A DNA stretch of 37,335 bases from Chitinophagales bacterium (lineage in GTDB: Bacteria > Bacteroidota > Bacteroidia > Chitinophagales > UBA2359), in NCBI GenBank assembly GCA_020630635.1, contig JAHDBB010000006.1, positions 1 through 37,335 of the forward strand, written 5' to 3'. A program made the translations under genes and the position numbers. The notes beneath the pieces are model-generated. The model saw only the letters and a list, made by a program, of their open reading frames with translations, was not told the origin of the DNA and did not search any database. Positions 226-32,344 of this stretch are shown here, piece after piece; positions within the stretch are counted from its first letter, which is position 1, and each line of letters opens with the position of its first letter.

Positions 226-367
226 TGGAGAGAACGTTTTAGTGCTTTGTCGTACAGCCAAGTCCCGCTATCCGTTCTTATTGCTGCCTTTCGCCTACCG
301 CAAGTCTTTTCGACTTGTGGTCAAAGCCAAGCCCCATGCAGCAATACCACTACTATCGGGTCTAGTT
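226..367 (-). repeat. Dispersed structured element, copy 1
   Basis: GGAGAGAACG...AAGTCCCGCTATCCGTTCTTATTGCTGC...GCAGCAATACCACTACTATCGGGTCTAG; apical stem TATTGCTGC/GCAGCAATA. Confidence 0.85.
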
Positions 368-829: not shown

Positions 830-3800
830 ATGAGCGTAGGGAAGAACATAACCGTCATTACTTTCATAGCCAGTCTTTTACTAGCCCTATCCAATCCAGG
901 ATACAGTTATAATAGAAGTACCGTCTATGATCTAGATTTTGCCACCTATGAAGAAGAGCTATATAATAATATGGTCCCTTCTTTAGTTGAGCCAAGCGAT
1001 TCAGGAGATTTACCATACCCCATACAAGACACCCGTTTCGACTATCTTAACGACCAACCAAGTAACAATCCATTCGATTTACAACCATCCCAATCCAACA
1101 TCGAATACGACCCTGTTACGGGCGAATACTCCATATCCAATCCGTCAACACCGTATATGCCTCCACAGACATTAGAGTTTGACGAATTTTGGGATATTCA
1201 AGACAACTCCAGCATGTCCGATTATTGGCAAAATCAAAGCCAAAATAACTCTAATTTAGGATATGATTTTTCGGGTTTAGCACCCAAATTGGAACTACCC
1301 GATAATATGGGCGGAATCTTTGGAGATGAAGCTGTTGATATTCGTCCCACAGGAGGGATCGAACTCATCATGGGTTACCGAAGACAAATCATTGATAATC
1401 CGACCCTTTTGGAGTGGAACCGAGACATCACACAGCCCGATTTTGATATGAATATCAATATGGGGGTAACAGGAAAGATCGGAAACAACCTCAATTTCAA
1501 CATCAACTATAATACCCAAGCTACTTTCGATTTTGAAAGACGTTTAAAATTGGAGTATACAGGAGATGAAGATGACATTCTCCAAAAAATTGAGGCAGGT
1601 TATGTAGACTTCCCACTTCCTACCACTTTAATACCTGGAAGTCACAGCCTCTTTGGACTCAAAACCCAACTCAAATTTGGTCGTTTAACAGCTACTACCG
1701 TCCTTTCTCAACAAAAATCAGAAAAACGCTGTTTTGACATCGAACAAGGAGCTTTAAGAAAAGAATTTGAAATTCGCTCAGACCAATTTGAAGAAAATAA
1801 ACACTTCTTCCTCGCTCAATACTTTAGAGACAATTATAATCGTGCTTTATCTACCCTTCCTTACATTCAATCAGAAGTATTTATCACCTATGTAGAAGTC
1901 TGGGTTACCAATAGAACAGGAACCACCCAAGATACTCGTAACGTATTGGCATTGATGGACTTAGGAGAAACCGATCCACATCGCCAACCCAACATCACGC
2001 CACAAGTATCGGATAACTTCCCACGCAACGAAGCCAACTCACTTTACGGTTCTGTAGCAGCAGATGGAGATAACAGAAGTATCGACAATGTAATCACAAA
2101 TGTAGAACAAACCTTACAACTTAGTAATACCGCTGATTTTAGATTAACAGAAGCAAGAAGACTTCGTCCCAACGAATTTACTTATGACCCACAATTGGGG
2201 TATATATCGCTCAATACAGGACGATTACAAACAGAAGATATTTTAGCAGTTGCTTACGAATACACGACCATTTGGGGAGACACCTATAAAGTAGGAGAAT
2301 TTTCTCAAGATCGTCCACCAAACATCAATGATTCTGGACGAGAACAAGTTCTTTTGACCAAGATGTTAAAAACAAGAGGACAACCCACCAGCCTTCCTGT
2401 ATGGGACTTAATGATGAGAAACGTCTATAAATTGCCTGGAGCTTATCGTGTCAACAAAGACGACTTTAGATTAAATGTATTCTATGAAACACCTGGTGGT
2501 GGAGTAACCCGTTTCTTACCTGATGGCGAAAATGTACGAGATAAACTATTAATTCAACTTTTGGGCTTGGATAATATGAACTTCCAAAATGACCCCAAAC
2601 CAGATGGTGTTTTCGATTTTTTTACTGCCCAACCAGTCGCACAAAATCCCCAATACGCCACCCAAAACCAATTTGGACAGTCTAATACAGGAGGTAGAGG
2701 ACGTGGCAGTAACTTTGGAGGCAATAATCGAGGATCTCAATACGGAGGAGCCAACGCCCAATACTTTAGCACGATGACACAAAATGGGCTGCTATTCTTC
2801 CCAGTAGTAGAACCTTTTGGAGAAGACCTCAAAAAGAATTTTAGCGACAATGAAGCAGCCTTAGCCAATAGTTTTGCCTATGACTATCTATATGATACTA
2901 CTTTAGTCATTGCAAGACAATTTCCAGAAAAAAACCGTTTCCTCATAAAAGGACAATTTAAGTCCAATAACTCTTCTGAAATTATATTAGGAGCCTTCAA
3001 CATTCCACAGGGTTCTATCGTCGTAAGAGCAGGGGGACAATTATTAAGAGAAGGCTCTGATTATACCGTCAACTACGGATTAGGAAGGGTCAACATCATC
3101 AACGATGCCTACCTAAATTCAGGAATCCCGATCCAGGTTTGTTACGAAGATCAAAACCTCTTCAGTATTCAGCAAAAAACCTTATTTGGAACAAGATTAG
3201 ATTATTGGATCAATGACGACTTTACGTTGGGAGGAACTTACGTACATCTTTCTCAGCGTCCTTTTACCCAAAAAGTCAACTATGGAGATGATGCAATCTC
3301 CAACCGTATGGTCGGTTTAGATGGAAACTACTACAAGGAATCGCCTTGGTTAACTCGAATGGTGGATAAAATTCCATTTATTGATACCAAAGAAAAATCA
3401 TCTGTCAGTTTCAATGCCGAAGCAGCACGATTCATTCCTGGACACGCCAAAGCCATTGATTTAGGTTCCAATGGTGTTGTTTTCTTAGACGATTTTGAAG
3501 GAACACAGAGTCAGTTAAGTATGGAATTCCCGATTACTGCTTGGTCTCTTGCCAGTACACCAACTGGTGGTGGACCAAATGGAGAGCAGATTTTCCCAAC
3601 TGCTGATCTAAAGGATGACTTAAGCTATGGCTATCAAAGAGGTACATTTGCTTGGTACAAAGCTGATTATAGTTCTATCAGACGAGATTCAATGGTTAGA
3701 ACACACTACAACAGAAATATTCAGTTGACAGAAGTTTTCCCACAAAAACAATTTGAACAGGGACAAGTCAATCTTTTAAGTTTTGACTTAGCCTACTTCC

Positions 3801-6800
3801 CAGAACGTCCTGGTCCTTATAACTTTGCGAGTGCTCCTAGCGACCTTGACCAAAATGGGAATCTAGTAAATCCAAAAGAAAGCTGGGGGGGAATGATGAG
3901 AGAATTAGATCTCAATGACTTCCAATTCCACAATATTGAATACATTGAGTTTTGGATGTTAGATCCTTTTATTGATAATCCAGATCATGAGGGTGGAACC
4001 ATGTTTATTGACTTAGGAACGGTATCTGAAGATGTTTTAAAAGATGGTCGTCGTTCCTTTGAAAATGGTCTACCAACCCCTAACCAACCTGAAAATACTG
4101 ATACAACTCTATGGGCAAGAGTTTCCAAAAATAATGTAATTGCCCGTTTCTTTGATAGTGATACGACCAATAGAAGGGCACAAGATGTCGGGTTTGATGG
4201 TTTAGATAACGAAGGGGAAAGAATCCTTTTTCAAAACTATTTAGCCGAAATTGAGGCACGAGCAGACTTATCTCAAGATGTTAAAGATGCTATTTTAGCA
4301 GACCCCGCCAATGACGATTTCGTATTTTTTACAGATTATCCTGCTTCAACAGATATGAGCGAAAGATACAGTCGTTTCAATCATCCACAAGGCAACTCTG
4401 TCAGACAAGATCAAGAACGAGAAGATAGTGGTCAAAGTCGAATTACTCGTTCAGCAACCAACTTACCAGATAACGAGGACTTGAACGATGACAATGCCCT
4501 AGAACAAACAGAATCTTACTTCCAATATCGAATAGAATTACGTCCTGAAGATCTGGTAATGGCTGAACAAGGAAGCAACTTTATTACCAGCATTCAAGAA
4601 AGCAATAGTGAAAATGCCATTGTAGATGGTCTGCCAGCTCGCTGGTTAAAATTCCAAATACCTGTGGCAGAATTTGAAGCACAAGTAGGTGAAATTGCCA
4701 ACTTTACTTCTATTCAATTTATGAGGGTTTATATGACAGATTTTGCTCAACCTGTCGTCTGTCGTCTTGCCGATTTCAACCTTATTCGTAATCAATGGCG
4801 TAGATATGAATCCAATATTTATGAGGAAGGAGAGTATCAACCAAGTGATAATATCACAAGCTCTCAATTCAATTCTACCTCTGTTAGTTTTGAACAACAC
4901 TACAATCGCCAACCAGTTCCTTATCGTATCCCACTAAACGTACAACAGGAACAAATTTTTAACAACACAACTACTCCCCTTCTTCAAAATGAGCAATCTC
5001 TTGCTTTGCAAGTTTGTGATTTGGAGGATGGAGTTGCCAATGCAGTGTTCAAAACAGAACGCTACGATATGCGAATGTTTAAGAGGCTACAAATGTTGAT
5101 ACACGCAGAGGAAGGACTCGAAAGTACCAGTACTTTACAAAATGGAGATGTATCAGCAATCATCAGGATCGGTAGTGATTTTACCTCCAACTATTATGAG
5201 TATGAAGTCCCTCTTACAGTCACTCCCCATCAAAATTATGGAAACAGTGACGCTGATAGAAGGGCTATTTGGCCTGAAGGAAATAGGGTCGATATAGCAT
5301 TAGACGATCTGGTAGAACTCAAAAAAGTTAGGAACTATACGCTTGATAGCCCCAACTTTACCAAGCCCTTCTCTCGCTTTGTAGAAACAGAACTAGTAGA
5401 CTCCTTAACAGGAGAAAGTAAAAAACTTCGCCGTAAAATTACCATTGTGGGAAGTCCTGACTTGGGTAAGGTTTCCACCATTATGTTAGGGGTTAGAAAC
5501 CCAAAAAGAACGGCTTTAACTTTAGATACAGATGATGGCTTAACCAAATGTGCCGAAGTCTGGTTCAATGAAATGGCTCTAGCAGAATTCAATGAAGAAG
5601 GTGGTTATGCCGCCTTAGCTCGTATGGATGTTAAGTTAGCAGACTTTGGTAATGTCACCGTATCTGGAAATATGCATACGGCTGGTTTCGGAACATTAGA
5701 ACAAAAAATTGTAGACCGTTTCCAAGACAATCTCTACCAATACGATGCAACTGCCAATATCAATCTGGATAAGTTTTTACCCAAGAAAAGTGGCATTAGA
5801 ATTCCTATGTATGCAGGTTATTCTGAATCGGTAAGCAATCCTAAATACGATCCTTATAATACGGATATTATTCTCAAAGAAGCACTGGATTCTATAGAAC
5901 TATACAAAGGAAGAGAGGCAAGGGATTCGGTCAAAAAACAAGCCCAAGAATATACCAGTATCAAAAGTTTGAACTTTAGTAATGTACGAAAGATACGAAC
6001 CAATACCGAAAAGAAACAACGTTTTTACGATATTGAAAACTTCAACTTAACAGCCGCTTATACCGAAATCAACTATCGTGATCCAACGGTTGAAAAGGAG
6101 AAAGAGAAACGATACAGAGGAGAATTAGGCTATGCTTACTCAACTAGACCCAAGTATATTCGTCCATTCAATAAGTTGATAAAATCCAAAAACAAGTATC
6201 TTAAACCTATAAAGGATTTCAATTTCAACTTTGTGCCTTCTAGTCTTTCTTTCAGAACAGACCTCAATCGACTCTTAGTGTCCACTAAATTGAGAAACCT
6301 AGTAGGCGATGATTTTGAGATGCCAACTTTCTATAACAAAGACTTTACTTGGGGAAGACACTATGGCTTAAAATTGGATTTGGCGAAGTCATTAAGTTTA
6401 GACTTCCAAGCAAGCAATAATTCTCGTATCGACGAGCCACAAGGCGCACCAACTGATGAGGCAAAAGAAGAACTTTGGAATAACTTCAAAAAGCTAGGTC
6501 GTACGCTCAATTACAACCAAAAAGCAACTGTCAATTGGAATGTGCCTATTGACAAGTTCCCACTATTTGACTGGACTAAAATACGTACCAGCTATGAAAC
6601 GACTTATAATTGGGTAACAGGTCCAGAAGTATTGATTGATTCTTTAGATATTGGTAATACTATTTCTAATAATCGCAATATACGAATCAATGGAGAATTA
6701 AACTTTAGCAAATTGTACAATAAGTCCAAGTTCTTAAAGAAAATCAATACACCAAGTAAGAAAAAGAACAATCGTCCTCCAAGAGATAAGGAAAAAGGCA

Positions 6801-8320
6801 AAGATAAAGACAAGGACAAGGACAAAGAAGACGATAAGACCAAAGAGAAGAAAAAACGAAATGCCTCTAGCATCAATCCTGGTGTCAAAGCAGTAGTTAG
6901 TCCGCTGATTATGCTTAAACGAGCGTCTTTGACCTTTACCCAACGACAAGGAACGGAAGTACCTGGTTTTATGCCTCAATCGCAATTATTGGGACAAAAC
7001 TGGAGTGGAAATGGGGTTTCATCAGCAGCTCCTGGTTTAGACTTCCTGTTTGGTATGCAACCTGATACTACCTGGCTCAATGAAGCAGCCAGCAAAAACT
7101 GGATCACGACCAATCCTTATCTGAACCGACAAGTTCGTCAGACCTATGATCGAAGCATTCAGGGAAAAGCCACAATTGAGCCTTTCAATGGTTTCAAGAT
7201 TGATTTGACCTTGACACAAACTCACAGGGAGACCCGTACAGAGTTCTTTAAAGTCAATCGTGATGGTGAATTTGAACACTTGGCTCCTACCGATATTGGA
7301 AGCTATACGGTTTCTTATCTGCCTTTCAAAACGGCTTGGGATAATCCAGGTGATTCGGTGGAACTCTCTGAAACCTATCAAAAGTTTGAGAGAAATAGAA
7401 GTATTATTTCTCAACGATTGGGTGAAGATAACTTTGCGAGTACGGGTACTTATTATAGTCCAATAGACTCAACCTTCTTAAATGATTACTCAAGAGGATA
7501 TGGTCCTTATTCACAAGACGTTTTATTAGCTTCATTTATTTCGGCTTATAAAGGGGTAGATGCCGACGATATTCAATTGAAAAATATCTTAAGACAGGCT
7601 CCTTTGCCTAACTGGACACTTACTTGGAATGGCTTGAATAATATAAAGGCTTTACAAAATGTCTTATCAAGCATCAATATCACACATGGTTATAAATCAA
7701 CTTATACCATCAATCAATTCCGTACAGAACAATCTTTCAATAGTAAGGTTTATCCGCAAAATACGAACTTACAAGCTCCTTATGTGATGGATACATTATC
7801 TGGTAATTTCTACCCGAACTTCCGTATTCCTGATGTTCAAATATCAGAGCAGTTTGTACCTTTGATTGGGTTGGATATGGCATTTACCAATAACTTTACG
7901 GCTCGTTTCCAATACAATAAGTCTCGTATCTTAGGATTGAGTTTAGTGGATTTCCAAATAAACGAATCCTTGTCAGAAGAATTTACAATTGGAGCAGGTT
8001 ATCAGATTGCAGGATTGCAACTGCCATTTAAGAATAAGGATGGTGAAAATATCGTCTTGAAAAATGACTTGACCTTCAACTGTGACTTTTCTTTGATGGA
8101 CAATATCACTTCGGTCTATGCTTTGGATCAAGATATTGCTCAACCGACAACAGGTAATAATACATTGCGTCTTTCACCGACTATTGATTATGTAGTCAAT
8201 GATCGGATTCGTTTGACCTTGTATTATGAAAGAACTCGGACTCGTCCTTATACGTCACAATCGTATCCAACGATCAATACAAAGGGCGGTATTCGCTTGA
8301 ACTTCTCGTTGGCACAGTAA
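830..8320 (+). CDS. sprA: Cell-surface protein SprA family (giant T9SS outer-membrane translocon component), 2496 aa
   Basis: Very long ORF with N-terminal signal peptide (MSVGKNITVITFIASLLLALSNPGYS); motifs such as GGIELIMGYRRQIIDNPTLLEWNRDITQPDFDMNINMGVTGKIG, KAIDLGSNGVVFLDDFEGTQSQLSM and a beta-strand-rich C-terminus recognisable as SprA. Confidence 0.93.
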   Translation: MSVGKNITVITFIASLLLALSNPGYSYNRSTVYDLDFATYEEELYNNMVPSLVEPSDSGDLPYPIQDTRFDYLNDQPSNNPFDLQPSQSNIEYDPVTGEYSISNPSTPYMPPQTLEFDEFWDIQDNSSMSDYWQNQSQNNSNLGYDFSGLAPKLELPDNMGGIFGDEAVDIRPTGGIELIMGYRRQIIDNPTLLEWNRDITQPDFDMNINMGVTGKIGNNLNFNINYNTQATFDFERRLKLEYTGDEDDILQKIEAGYVDFPLPTTLIPGSHSLFGLKTQLKFGRLTATTVLSQQKSEKRCFDIEQGALRKEFEIRSDQFEENKHFFLAQYFRDNYNRALSTLPYIQSEVFITYVEVWVTNRTGTTQDTRNVLALMDLGETDPHRQPNITPQVSDNFPRNEANSLYGSVAADGDNRSIDNVITNVEQTLQLSNTADFRLTEARRLRPNEFTYDPQLGYISLNTGRLQTEDILAVAYEYTTIWGDTYKVGEFSQDRPPNINDSGREQVLLTKMLKTRGQPTSLPVWDLMMRNVYKLPGAYRVNKDDFRLNVFYETPGGGVTRFLPDGENVRDKLLIQLLGLDNMNFQNDPKPDGVFDFFTAQPVAQNPQYATQNQFGQSNTGGRGRGSNFGGNNRGSQYGGANAQYFSTMTQNGLLFFPVVEPFGEDLKKNFSDNEAALANSFAYDYLYDTTLVIARQFPEKNRFLIKGQFKSNNSSEIILGAFNIPQGSIVVRAGGQLLREGSDYTVNYGLGRVNIINDAYLNSGIPIQVCYEDQNLFSIQQKTLFGTRLDYWINDDFTLGGTYVHLSQRPFTQKVNYGDDAISNRMVGLDGNYYKESPWLTRMVDKIPFIDTKEKSSVSFNAEAARFIPGHAKAIDLGSNGVVFLDDFEGTQSQLSMEFPITAWSLASTPTGGGPNGEQIFPTADLKDDLSYGYQRGTFAWYKADYSSIRRDSMVRTHYNRNIQLTEVFPQKQFEQGQVNLLSFDLAYFPERPGPYNFASAPSDLDQNGNLVNPKESWGGMMRELDLNDFQFHNIEYIEFWMLDPFIDNPDHEGGTMFIDLGTVSEDVLKDGRRSFENGLPTPNQPENTDTTLWARVSKNNVIARFFDSDTTNRRAQDVGFDGLDNEGERILFQNYLAEIEARADLSQDVKDAILADPANDDFVFFTDYPASTDMSERYSRFNHPQGNSVRQDQEREDSGQSRITRSATNLPDNEDLNDDNALEQTESYFQYRIELRPEDLVMAEQGSNFITSIQESNSENAIVDGLPARWLKFQIPVAEFEAQVGEIANFTSIQFMRVYMTDFAQPVVCRLADFNLIRNQWRRYESNIYEEGEYQPSDNITSSQFNSTSVSFEQHYNRQPVPYRIPLNVQQEQIFNNTTTPLLQNEQSLALQVCDLEDGVANAVFKTERYDMRMFKRLQMLIHAEEGLESTSTLQNGDVSAIIRIGSDFTSNYYEYEVPLTVTPHQNYGNSDADRRAIWPEGNRVDIALDDLVELKKVRNYTLDSPNFTKPFSRFVETELVDSLTGESKKLRRKITIVGSPDLGKVSTIMLGVRNPKRTALTLDTDDGLTKCAEVWFNEMALAEFNEEGGYAALARMDVKLADFGNVTVSGNMHTAGFGTLEQKIVDRFQDNLYQYDATANINLDKFLPKKSGIRIPMYAGYSESVSNPKYDPYNTDIILKEALDSIELYKGREARDSVKKQAQEYTSIKSLNFSNVRKIRTNTEKKQRFYDIENFNLTAAYTEINYRDPTVEKEKEKRYRGELGYAYSTRPKYIRPFNKLIKSKNKYLKPIKDFNFNFVPSSLSFRTDLNRLLVSTKLRNLVGDDFEMPTFYNKDFTWGRHYGLKLDLAKSLSLDFQASNNSRIDEPQGAPTDEAKEELWNNFKKLGRTLNYNQKATVNWNVPIDKFPLFDWTKIRTSYETTYNWVTGPEVLIDSLDIGNTISNNRNIRINGELNFSKLYNKSKFLKKINTPSKKKNNRPPRDKEKGKDKDKDKDKEDDKTKEKKKRNASSINPGVKAVVSPLIMLKRASLTFTQRQGTEVPGFMPQSQLLGQNWSGNGVSSAAPGLDFLFGMQPDTTWLNEAASKNWITTNPYLNRQVRQTYDRSIQGKATIEPFNGFKIDLTLTQTHRETRTEFFKVNRDGEFEHLAPTDIGSYTVSYLPFKTAWDNPGDSVELSETYQKFERNRSIISQRLGEDNFASTGTYYSPIDSTFLNDYSRGYGPYSQDVLLASFISAYKGVDADDIQLKNILRQAPLPNWTLTWNGLNNIKALQNVLSSINITHGYKSTYTINQFRTEQSFNSKVYPQNTNLQAPYVMDTLSGNFYPNFRIPDVQISEQFVPLIGLDMAFTNNFTARFQYNKSRILGLSLVDFQINESLSEEFTIGAGYQIAGLQLPFKNKDGENIVLKNDLTFNCDFSLMDNITSVYALDQDIAQPTTGNNTLRLSPTIDYVVNDRIRLTLYYERTRTRPYTSQSYPTINTKGGIRLNFSLAQ

Positions 8321-8681: not shown

Positions 8682-8795
8682 TAGCCCCGATAGAAGTGGT
8701 ATAGCAAAGTGCAGAGCTAGAAGATTTTGCGAAGCTTGCTATAAGAACGGATAGCGGGACTTTCCTGTACGACGAAGCTCCCAACCTTTCGCTCC
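8682..8795 (+). repeat. Dispersed structured element, copy 2
   Basis: TAGCCCCGATAGAAGTGGTATAGCAA...TTGCTATAAGAACGGATAGCGGGAC...TTTCGCTCC; stem TATAGCAA/TTGCTATA. Confidence 0.88.
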
Positions 8796-8875: not shown

Positions 8876-8994
8876 AGGAGAGAACGGTTATTACTCTTTC
8901 ATCGCAACGGGGCTTCTCGCTATCCGTTCTTATCACCAAGCCCCGCCAAACCTTTAGCCAATGCTCATTGGTGATACCACTACTATCGAGTCTA
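8876..8994 (-). repeat. Dispersed structured element, copy 3
   Basis: GAGGAGAGAACG...CTTCTCGCTATCCGTTCTTATCACCAA...TTGGTGATACCACTACTATCGAGTCTA; stem TATCACCAA/TTGGTGATA. Confidence 0.85.
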
Positions 8995-9043
8995 TACAAG
9001 CAAGGACATTTGCTCTATCAAAGGTTTTCAAATAGGCACAAAA

Positions 9044-15208: not shown

Positions 15209-15634
15209 CAAATATTCTTGTACAAATAAAAATTATATTTTTGAGTTTGTGGTAAGATTTCGCTTATAACTTCTTTGATTTTACCTAAAAAGTCTCCTTA
15301 ATCACTTTTATGCTTAGGGATCATTTGACGGGGCTTACACAAAGAAAACACTTAAACCACTGTTTATCAATTAATTACAGCTTTACAAAGTAAAAAACCA
15401 GCTAACATTCCTTAAAAATTGTACTTTATTTCTTTGTTTACCTATTTTATATTTGTTCTTATATAATTGTTGCTGGAGACTTGTGGCTTCCATAATTTGT
15501 AAATGAAAATTGTATTAATATTCCAACTTATGTTTATTTTTTACGTTTAGGTTAGAAGGAGTTTTAATAAAATCTAAAGGGATTGTGGCACTAGCAAGCA
15601 TGGATCAGTCACTATATGTTCTGCCCTTTCCTAA

Positions 15635-15753
15635 ATAGCCCCGATAGTAGTGGTATGCTAAACGCAGCGTTGGCTAAAAGAATTTGCGAGGCTTTTAGCA
15701 TAAGAACGGATAGCGGGACTTGCTGTGACGATGGAAGAAAAGCCGTTCGCTCC
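15635..15753 (+). repeat. Dispersed structured element, copy 4
   Basis: TAGCCCCGATAGTAGTGGTATGCTAAA...TTTTAGCATAAGAACGGATAGCGGGACTT...GTTCGCTCC; stem TATGCTAAA/TTTAGCATA. Confidence 0.88.
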
Positions 15754-16840: not shown

Positions 16841-16877
16841 AAAAAAAGCCATTTCCGATTAGGAAATGGCTTTTTTT
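16841..16877. terminator. Bidirectional Rho-independent terminator (copy 1)
   Basis: AAAAAAAGCCATTTCC-gatta-GGAAATGGCTTTTTTT after the T9SS protein stop. Confidence 0.88.
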
Positions 16878-16963
16878 ATTGCGATTCGGGGTTGAGCAAA
16901 TTCGTGAATTTGCTTTACGTTATTTGGGACGAAGTTTAGGTGCTTTGTTTTATTTTTTATTTT

Positions 16964-17082
16964 TGGAGCGAAGGGTTGGGGGTGCTTCGTCGTAATGGAA
17001 AGTCCCGCTATCCATTCTTATTCGTGTGGCTAGGTTTTTCTAAGCCAACGCTTCTACACGAATACCATTTCTATCGGGGCTA
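16964..17082 (-). repeat. Dispersed structured element, copy 5
   Basis: TGGAGCGAAGGG...AAGTCCCGCTATCCATTCTTATTCGTGT...ACACGAATACCATTTCTATCGGGGCTA; stem ATTCGTGT/ACACGAAT. Confidence 0.86.
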
Positions 17083-17170
17083 TTTTGAAAGGTCTCAATG
17101 TTTTATTTTTTTGTATTTCTTAAGTTTTAGACTCATTTTACCAAAAGTATCAAAGACTCAAAAAAAATAA

Positions 17171-17203
17171 AAAAAGCCATTTCCGATTAGGAAATGGCTT
17201 TTT
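17171..17203. terminator. Bidirectional Rho-independent terminator (copy 2, same hairpin), end of the rplQ transcript
   Basis: AAAAAGCCATTTCC-gatta-GGAAATGGCTTTTT, 23 bp from the rplQ stop. Confidence 0.88.
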
Positions 17204-19083: not shown

Positions 19084-19202
19084 CTAGACCCGATAGTAGC
19101 GGTATGAATGTACTCGCATTGGCGTGGGTTGTGGCCAAGCTACATTCATAATAGCGGATAGCGGGGAGACCTGTTGCGATGAAAGAGGAACTGTTCTCTC
19201 CT
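19084..19202 (+). repeat. Dispersed structured element, copy 6
   Basis: TAGACCCGATAGTAGCGGTATGAATGTA...TACATTCATAATAGCGGATAGCGGGGAGA...TTCTCTCC; stem TATGAATGTA/TACATTCATA. Confidence 0.86.
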
Positions 19203-24261: not shown

Positions 24262-24381
24262 TAGGAGCGAATATTTGGGTGCTTTGTCGTAATGGAAAGT
24301 CCCGCTATCCGTTCTTATTGCTGTTGCTTTTCTGCAATATAACCCAACGCACACACAGCAATACCACTGCTATCGGGGCTA
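24262..24381 (-). repeat. Dispersed structured element, copy 7
   Basis: AGGAGCGAA...AAGTCCCGCTATCCGTTCTTATTGCTGT...ACAGCAATACCACTGCTATCGGGGCTA; stem TATTGCTGT/ACAGCAATA. Confidence 0.88.
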
Positions 24382-24444
24382 TTTTGCATAGTCTCAACCT
24401 CTATCCCAAAACCATGTAATTGTTCTAAAGTTTATATCAAAAGA

Positions 24445-25410: not shown

Positions 25411-25528
25411 CTAGACCCGATAGTAGTGGTATTCGTGTGGAAGCGTTGGCTACCTAAAACGTTGGCGACACGAATAAGAACGGATAGCGGGGAGATCCAA
25501 CACGATGAAATACGGACTGTTCTCTCCT
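25411..25528 (+). repeat. Dispersed structured element, copy 8
   Basis: TAGACCCGATAGTAGTGGTATTCGTGT...ACACGAATAAGAACGGATAGCGGGGAGA...TTCTCTCC; stem TATTCGTGT/ACACGAATA. Confidence 0.88.
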
Positions 25529-25607: not shown

Positions 25608-25712
25608 ATGTCGGACCAGTTCAAAAGCCTCGTCTTAGCCCTGCTATGCCGAAACGTCGGACCGCTCCGTTTTTTGTCGAGTCGTCGAACCGCTCTCCAT
25701 CAAAAAGTCTCT
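25608..25712 (-). repeat. Second short dispersed repeat, copy C (diverged, with internal GC-rich repeats)
   Basis: Reverse complement contains CATAGCAGGGCTAAGACGAGGCTTTTGAAC, preceded by GAGACTTTTTGATGGAG. Confidence 0.55.
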
Positions 25713-30590: not shown

Positions 30591-30860
30591 TTACTTTAAT
30601 TTCTTTGAAGAATGACCTTTAAAATTACGAGTTGGAGAGAACTCTCCAAATTTGTGTCCTACCATGTTTTCTGTGACATACACTGGTATGAACTTATTTC
30701 CATTGTGGACAGCTACTGTGTGTCCTACAAAGTCAGGAGAAATGACAGATGCTCTAGACCACGTTTTGATAAGTTTTTTCTTACCACTTTCGTTGAGAGC
30801 GTCTATTTTTTTCTGTAACTTGTAGCTTACGTAAGGTCCTTTTTTTAATGATCTAGCCAT
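30591..30860 (-). CDS. rpsS: 30S ribosomal protein S19
   Basis: [27 protein letters not shown]. Confidence 0.98.
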
Positions 30861-31690
30861 TATTTTCTAGATTTTTTCTTACTAATGATTAATTTAGAAG
30901 ATGCCTTGTGGCGATTACGAGTCTTCTTACCTTTGGCATATAATCCTGTTCTTGAACGTGGATGTCCTCCAGAAGATTTACCTTCTCCACCTCCCATTGG
31001 GTGATCGACAGGGTTCATTGCGACTCCTCTTGTACGAGGTCTCTTACCTTTCCAACGGTTACGTCCTGCTTTTGCTAAAACTTGTAAGTTGTGATCTGTG
31101 TTGGAAACGGTTCCAATGGTCGCTTTACAAGTCAAAAGAATCATACGGGTTTCACCTGATGGCATTTTGATAATGGCATATCTGCCGTCTTTGTTTGCCA
31201 ATTGTGCATAGGTTCCTGCGCTTCTTGCAATGACTGCTCCTCTTCCTGGTTCTAGCTCTATATTGTGAATGATCGTTCCTAAAGGAATATCTTTGAGAAA
31301 AAGGGTGTTTCCTAAATCAGGTGATGCCCCTTCTCCTGACACAATTTTATCGCCTACTTTAATGCCTTCTGGTGCAATGATGTATCGTTTTTCACCATCG
31401 GCATAAGCGATTAAAGAAATAAAAGCGGTACGATTGGGATCATACTCTACTGTTTTGACAACACCAGGTACTCCGTGCTTATTTCGCTTGAAGTCAATGA
31501 TTCTGTAACGCTTTTTGTGTCCTCCTCCTCTGTTTCGGGCAGTTGTGCGCCCTTTGCTGTTTCTACCTCCTGACTTTGAGTGTGGAGCCAACAAGCTTTT
31601 TTCTGGCTTATTGGTGGTTAACTCAGAGTAGTCAACACTTACTCTAAATCTTGTACCAGGTGTAGTTGGATTATATTTTTTTGTTGCCAT
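30860..31690 (-). CDS. rplB: 50S ribosomal protein L2
   Basis: [33 protein letters not shown]. Confidence 0.98.
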
Positions 31691-31840
31691 AATTTCGATT
31701 CTTATCGGTTATCGAAAACCATACTTTTGAATTAAAGTGACAAGTTTGTGGTGATTGGTGTTTTCAATCACTTTTGAGATGTCTCTATAATATTTTGGTT
31801 TTTAAATTGGTTCAGAAACTATGGGTTCTGACCTTAACGA

Positions 31841-31982
31841 ACTAGCCCCGATAGTAGTGATATTCGTGTGAAAGGCTCTGAACCACAAGTCGAAAAGACT
31901 TGCGGTAGAAGGCAAGGCTACACGAATAAGAACGGATAGCGGGACTTTCCTGTACGACGAAGCATTTGAACCTTTCGCTCCT
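31841..31982 (+). repeat. Dispersed structured element, copy 9
   Basis: CTAGCCCCGATAGTAGTGATATTCGTGTG...CACACGAATAAGAACGGATAGCGGGACTTTCCTGTACGACGAAG...TTTCGCTCC; stem ATTCGTGTG... with additional apical hairpin. Confidence 0.88.
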
Positions 31983-32002: not shown

Positions 32003-32344
32003 TTATGCTTCTGCTGCAGTTGGTTCATCTTCGTTCTCTGTTGGAAGTTCTGCATCGGCATAAAAATCTATGACATCGCCTTCGGCTAATGTGACAATTG
32101 CTTTCTTTTTTAATGCAGTCTTACCCGTTAAAAAGCCTGTCTTGGTATAACGAGTTTTCGCTATTCTGGGTGTTCTCAATGTATTGACTTTGGTTACAGA
32201 AACCTCGAACATCTCTTCTACGGCCTTTTTTATCTCAATTTTATTTGCTTTAAGATTGACATAAAAGGTATAGGCATTGCGGTCTTCCCCTAGTTTTTCA
32301 GATTTTTCTGTAATAACAGGCTTGATGAGTATATTTTTTGACAT
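32003..32344 (-). CDS. rplW: 50S ribosomal protein L23
   Basis: LIKPVITEKSEKLGEDRNAYTFYVNLKANKIEIKKAVEEMF. Confidence 0.97.
   Translation of the reverse strand: MSKNILIKPVITEKSEKLGEDRNAYTFYVNLKANKIEIKKAVEEMFEVSVTKVNTLRTPRIAKTRYTKTGFLTGKTALKKKAIVTLAEGDVIDFYADAELPTENEDEPTAAEA

Follow-up and report, generated by a model that had tools for sequence, protein, structure and literature searches.

RAYTs (REP-associated tyrosine transposases, or TnpA_REP) are HUH/Y1 transposases that act on single-stranded DNA. In the systems that they form with their REPs (REPtrons, REPINs, BIMEs), a short, mismatch-bearing hairpin is present in hundreds of intergenic copies, and inverted hairpins, together with a companion second hairpin, stand around the RAYT gene. 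Cleavage by RAYTs has been shown in vitro, but the routes by which REPs disseminate are poorly understood (PMC8266576). Mobile elements that insert specifically into a palindromic repeat are known from IS1397, IS621 and ISPsy8, insertion sequences that enter REPs (PMC1525189); the case described here is instead one of a REP within another palindromic repeat, the putative insert being a 27-nucleotide hairpin. That other repeat corresponds to the Flavo-1 RNA motif (RF01705; Weinberg 2010, PMC2864571), whose function is not known and for which the Flavobacterium psychrophilum transcriptome yielded no clue (PMC9723704).

The window (the whole stretch of 37,335 nucleotides that was analysed) belongs to a 6.3-Mb Bacteroidota MAG, a draft of 739 contigs of which 1.4 Mb was sampled. 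Its nine complete palindromic copies are Flavo-1 elements (Table 1), and two of them house a member of a second repeat family. Like the motif as described, the elements have a conserved core (CCCCGATAG.../...GGATAGCGGGA, common to all those sampled) and a variable apical stem; unlike it, they recur about once per 3.5 kb (402-403 complete elements in 1.4 Mb; zero in reversed controls) and carry exchangeable apical modules. Only 5 of 403 lie inside a called ORF. In copies 1 and 9 the variable loop is longer by the insert, and both score just below the RF01705 gathering score of 42, a value exceeded by copies 4, 5 and 7. Copy 9 is an addition to the ribosomal operon, given that the gap between rplB and rplW is 315 nt in this genome, whereas the relatives searched have gaps of 5-183 nt.

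Table 1. Flavo-1 elements and REP hairpins in the window
Feature	Coordinates	Strand	Evidence
Flavo-1 copy 1, upstream of 2496-aa ORF 830-8320, stem ATTGCTGC	257..367	-	RF01705 38.8 bits, E 3.2e-7 (stretch searched), gathering score 42
27-nt REP hairpin (solo), apex of Flavo-1 copy 1	295..321	-	exact match; same hairpin brackets RAYT genes
Flavo-1 copy 2, REP-less apex	8682..8759	+	core motifs
Flavo-1 copy 3, REP-less apex	8915..8995	-	core motifs
Flavo-1 copy 4, REP-less	15633..15724	+	RF01705 42.1 bits
Flavo-1 copy 5, REP-less	16997..17085	-	RF01705 42.8 bits
Flavo-1 copy 6, REP-less	19085..19166	+	core motifs
Flavo-1 copy 7, REP-less	24294..24384	-	RF01705 44.2 bits
Flavo-1 copy 8, REP-less apex, TCGTGT stem class as in copy 9	25412..25492	+	core motifs
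Flavo-1 copy 9, ribosomal operon, between rplB-like (30860-31690) and rplW-like (32003-32344), stem ATTCGTGT	31840..31950	+	RF01705 40.2 bits, E 1.4e-7 (stretch searched)
27-nt REP hairpin (solo), apex of Flavo-1 copy 9	31882..31908	+	exact match
Flavo-1, tenth copy, cut by contig end	37312..37335	-	repeat family D14

The 27-mer, ACCACAAGTCGAAAAGACTTGCGGTAG, is an imperfect hairpin with the layout ACC-A-CAAGTC-GAAAA-GACTTG-C-GGT, followed by AG. It had been described in the initial annotation as common to copies 1 and 9 on opposite strands, within differing apical stems, and missing from the remaining complete copies, and each of these points is borne out. Both positions are exact, and the window holds no further match with up to three mismatches (none expected by chance, from 100 shuffles). 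DNA folding places the hairpin at the tip of a long stem in both elements, between ATTCGTGT/ACACGAAT in copy 9 (31862-31869/31920-31927) and ATTGCTGC/GCAGCAAT in copy 1 (minus strand, 338-345/280-287). These outer stems are unrelated in sequence, yet each pairs with itself.

Linkage to a RAYT gene identifies the 27-mer as the REP of a RAYT. In the window's genome, the RAYT gene at C124:998-1561(-) (L012) lies between inverted 27-mers, one at 862-888(-) and one at 1624-1650(+), and a companion hairpin stands on the inner side of each. The same architecture is found in R2_Bin_Bin_98_1 (G020), a Chitinophagales MAG from another family of the same order, where an exact 27-mer lies just 5' of a RAYT gene (L063) and an inverted near-exact copy lies on its far side; this RAYT is 76% identical to L012. 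Both proteins exceed the cut-off of 80 bits for the NCBIfam REP-associated tyrosine transposase family NF047646 (L012, 104.2 bits; L063, 100.1 bits), and L012 matches the TnpA_REP chain of PDB 4er8 (E 4.8e-5). Elsewhere among public genome contigs the exact 27-mer occurs only in this MAG, which is also the only one of 60 relatives searched to have the REP.

The motifs of L012 (NHIH, FWQQ and YYSSARNY, with an HUH-Y distance of 83 aa counted on the protein) fit Bertels group 5 and TnpA_REP subclass 2.6 of Bacteroidetes, which has NH[LIV]H, WQ, SS and ~82 aa from HUH to Y (PMC6006769). The Y motif reads YIHYNP in L012 and L063 and YIHNNP in a second RAYT, L011, the subclass 2.6 pattern being YIH[QN]NP. 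Hairpins flanking members of this subclass in Bacteroidetes are 'atypical' and lack a 5' GT[AG]G (PMC6006769). The 27-mer likewise has no such 5' sequence; its 5' foot is ACC (CTACC on the other strand), and GGTAG stands at its 3' foot instead of the usual 5' GTAG guide. It is therefore regarded not as a canonical GTAG REP but as an atypical one, belonging to a RAYT that comes closest to subclass 2.6/group 5. As expected of a REP, it is a short, imperfect, mainly intergenic palindrome of high copy number (~224 copies genome-wide with up to three mismatches; reversed control, 0). It differs from described REP/RAYT systems in that its copies are nearly all solo and lodged in the apex of another repeat. 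Not one Flavo-1 apex carries two REP hairpins, the inverted pair within one hairpin that makes a REPIN; REPs housed in Flavo-1 are always solo, and hairpin pairs are found only outside it.

Across a 1.05-Mb sample that, apart from the window, was not chosen for the 27-mer, 36 of 42 REP copies are housed in Flavo-1 apices; these apices account for ~1.2% of that sample. The initial annotation had asked whether the 27-mer occurs only at the apex of these elements. This holds for the exact copies sampled, all 65 of which are in Flavo-1 (1.4 Mb, enriched for REP-bearing contigs; 61 in intact elements and four in elements that have decayed or are truncated at a contig end), but free pairs exist and the hairpin brackets a RAYT gene. 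When up to five mismatches are allowed, 7 of 97 copies are truly free of Flavo-1, each with a companion hairpin ~33 nt upstream; the reading of the 27-mer as a widespread free-standing repeat with no tie to the element is thus rejected. Five free REP pairs (L054, L182, L129, L136 and L168) are nested in a further palindromic repeat (TATACATAACGGC...), which shows that Flavo-1 is not the only palindrome to house the REP. Viral contigs held no copy of the 27-mer.

Given that nearly all copies in the window's genome sit in Flavo-1, and that several other apical modules exist there, the hairpin might be taken for a native apical variant of Flavo-1 that was later adopted by a RAYT as its REP. Two relatives, which apart from small loci were compared as match coordinates, make this very improbable. 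In G020 the REP occurs as inverted pairs around RAYT genes and relics of such genes, several REPs forming outward-facing pairs with a spacing of 132-692 bp, and none overlaps any of at least 143 Flavo-1 matches, among the matches listed; in G017, which belongs to the family of the window's genome, at least 115 Flavo-1 matches are accompanied by no REP. Found around RAYT genes, in free pairs and, in G020, outside the listed Flavo-1 matches, the 27-mer is not private to Flavo-1. The 'modular exchange of apical segments' originally proposed is right in spirit, in that a discrete apical module occurs in many stems and independently of the remainder of Flavo-1, and wrong or incomplete in that the module is the REP of a RAYT.

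The apices of the sampled elements fall into a plain GCGTTGGCT type (203 elements), the 27-mer (83 in element orientation and two reversed), GAGCAAATTC (43), AAAGGCACTTT (14), GACATTTTT (12) and others (46). Pneumococcal BOX A-B-C elements and ERIC with its internal inserts resemble Flavo-1 in having optional internal modules; BOX and ERIC are not known to have a transposase-linked module at the apex. No Flavo-1 apical module is present among the strong flank hairpins of L011, the IS200 transposase L009 or another Y1 gene (L010), so none of the remaining modules could be linked to a transposase. The 6-bp apical stem has 61 different left arms, yet 95% of its positions pair, compared with 40% when arms are shuffled between elements. 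REP-bearing copies have 17 different stem arms, and 69 of 83 are fully paired (6 of 6 bp). These figures bear on the idea that apices with no relation to each other were fused across the repeated 27-mer during metagenome assembly, which the 739-contig state of the draft and several contigs ending in these repeats might suggest. Random joins would destroy the pairing, as the shuffled arms do; the stems on either side of the REP pair together, which makes chimerism unlikely and an assembly artefact scarcely credible.

The boundaries of the repeated unit are sharp. Among 82 copies in the same orientation, the bases of the 27-mer carry 1.5-2 bits of information each (the first one 1.2), the two bases beyond its end have ~1 bit and the value is near 0 thereafter, and a weaker GGCTT, common across stem classes, stands 4-8 nt upstream. 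The 27-mers flanking RAYT genes in both genomes have the same ends as those in Flavo-1. Linkers total a median of 21 nt in REP-bearing apices versus 28 nt in plain ones, and in 8 of 10 comparisons the 7-nt linkers are closer to REP-less elements of the same stem class than to REP-bearing ones of a different class, as if ~7 nt of loop had been replaced by the REP. Because conservation ends where the 27-mer ends and linkers mostly match their own class, insertion of the 27-mer itself is likelier than a swap of the whole apex.

Whether an element has the REP does not correlate with its other parts (k-nearest-neighbour z = -2.0 overall and -1.5 to -0.1 within stem classes; Mantel z for REP versus flanks between -0.3 and 1.0). 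This fits 'an insertion-like process', although saturation of the flanks would also leave no correlation between them and the REP. The REPs are far more alike (mean p-distance 0.040) than their host chassis (mean 0.295, minimum 0.092), a uniformity that may stem from selection and not from youth. That Flavo-1 and its REP transposed or duplicated as a unit, with stems diverging afterwards, is highly unlikely. Flavo-1 is dispersed, and relatives have none between rplB and rplW, so that mobility of the chassis, past or present, is implied; yet any two sampled chassis share at most 91% identity, the minimum distance belonging to an adjacent pair, and the elements most similar to REP-bearing copies mostly lack the REP (8 of 77 have it).

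Harder to dismiss, though still rather unlikely in our judgement, is a process in line with the initial annotation: after a few captures of the REP by Flavo-1, gene conversion or template switching would have spread REP-bearing apices from element to element. In its favor, there is almost no linkage among left flank, apex and right flank of Flavo-1, which indicates that exchange or saturation has occurred; REP orientation relative to Flavo-1 is nearly fixed (82 of 84); and the upstream GGCTT is common to different stem classes. Conversion tracts would, however, need to stop only a few bases from the 27-mer and leave each element its own paired stem, as in the 69 fully paired copies, and linkers mostly resemble those of the element's own class. 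Two insertion positions within the CACCAA class and two reversed copies point to more than one event, and the total of at least two orientations and at least two positions sits poorly with few captures.

We therefore favor, as the probable explanation, repeated RAYT-linked insertion of solo REPs into the apical loops of pre-existing Flavo-1 hairpins. A RAYT acting on single-stranded DNA would have placed its REP in loops of Flavo-1, the target presumably being the folded single strand, in many independent insertions. Solo REPs would thereby have colonised the tips of an older and very abundant repeat, usually landing a few bases 3' of GGCTT, nearly always in one orientation and replacing ~7 nt of loop. 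No orthologous pair of empty and filled Flavo-1 elements was found, the relatives searched being too distant. In Pseudomonas, solo REPs are taken to be what is left of REP doublets and to be no longer mobile (PMC3116915), which weighs against this explanation; in the present genome, however, it is solo REPs that fill Flavo-1.

Under repeated insertion, one REP family would have a defined and all but unique target in the tip of another hairpin. Extrapolation gives more than 1,000 candidate sites, with filled and empty ones both numerous, and RAYT target choice becomes directly testable. A widespread RNA motif is at the same time linked to mobile DNA, and Flavo-1 may accordingly have a role as a DNA repeat and not solely as an sRNA. 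It is tentatively conceivable that the group-5 RAYT targets structure, inserting its REP into loops of already extruded hairpins, with Flavo-1 tips as dedicated landing pads and GAGCAAATTC, AAAGGCACTTT and GACATTTTT as REPs of other, perhaps extinct, RAYTs. Flavo-1 would then be a chromosome-wide docking array for single-strand transposons.

Several other repeats were observed. A free-standing GAGCAAATTC...GAATTTGCT hairpin, elsewhere a Flavo-1 apical module, lies at 16891-16918, ~80 nt from copy 5. Around the same copy, between convergent genes, are near-identical inverted terminator-like palindromes (AAAAAGCCATTTCCGATTAGGAAATGGCTTTTT; 16843-16880 and 17166-17203) that occur nowhere else in the 1.4-Mb sample. 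Another dispersed repeat (GTCATAGCANNGCTACGACGAG; ~22 copies in the same sample) is present at 122-143, 687-708 and 25629-25650, near the window start within a larger palindrome. The GACATTTTT module also tips a different palindromic repeat (ACGAAATAA...; L083:4941 and L135:100), suggesting that modules are common to several repeat families.

REP orientation did not correspond to GC skew, so a lagging-strand bias was undetected. The nearest genes of REP-bearing elements in the 1.4-Mb sample were more often antisense (94 versus 48 same-sense) than those of REP-less elements (272 versus 295; Fisher p = 1e-4, post hoc and with partly non-independent counts).

Flavo-1 itself alternates in orientation along the genome, in 258 of 291 neighbouring pairs of the 1.4-Mb sample against 50% expected (sd 2.9%). 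The pattern persists in 91 of 115 pairs at least 3 kb apart, holds to lag 6 and is largely independent of gene direction. Among the matches listed, it is seen in G017 (10 of 13 neighbours) and not in G020 (17 of 43). We have no convincing mechanism for this alternation, which is possibly more interesting than the REP finding itself. Pairs less than 1 kb apart comprise 66 of type '-+', two of type '+-' and none of the same orientation, and '+-' intervals cluster at ~3.3 kb; copies 2 and 3 of the window form the sole '+-' pair closer than 400 nt in the sample.
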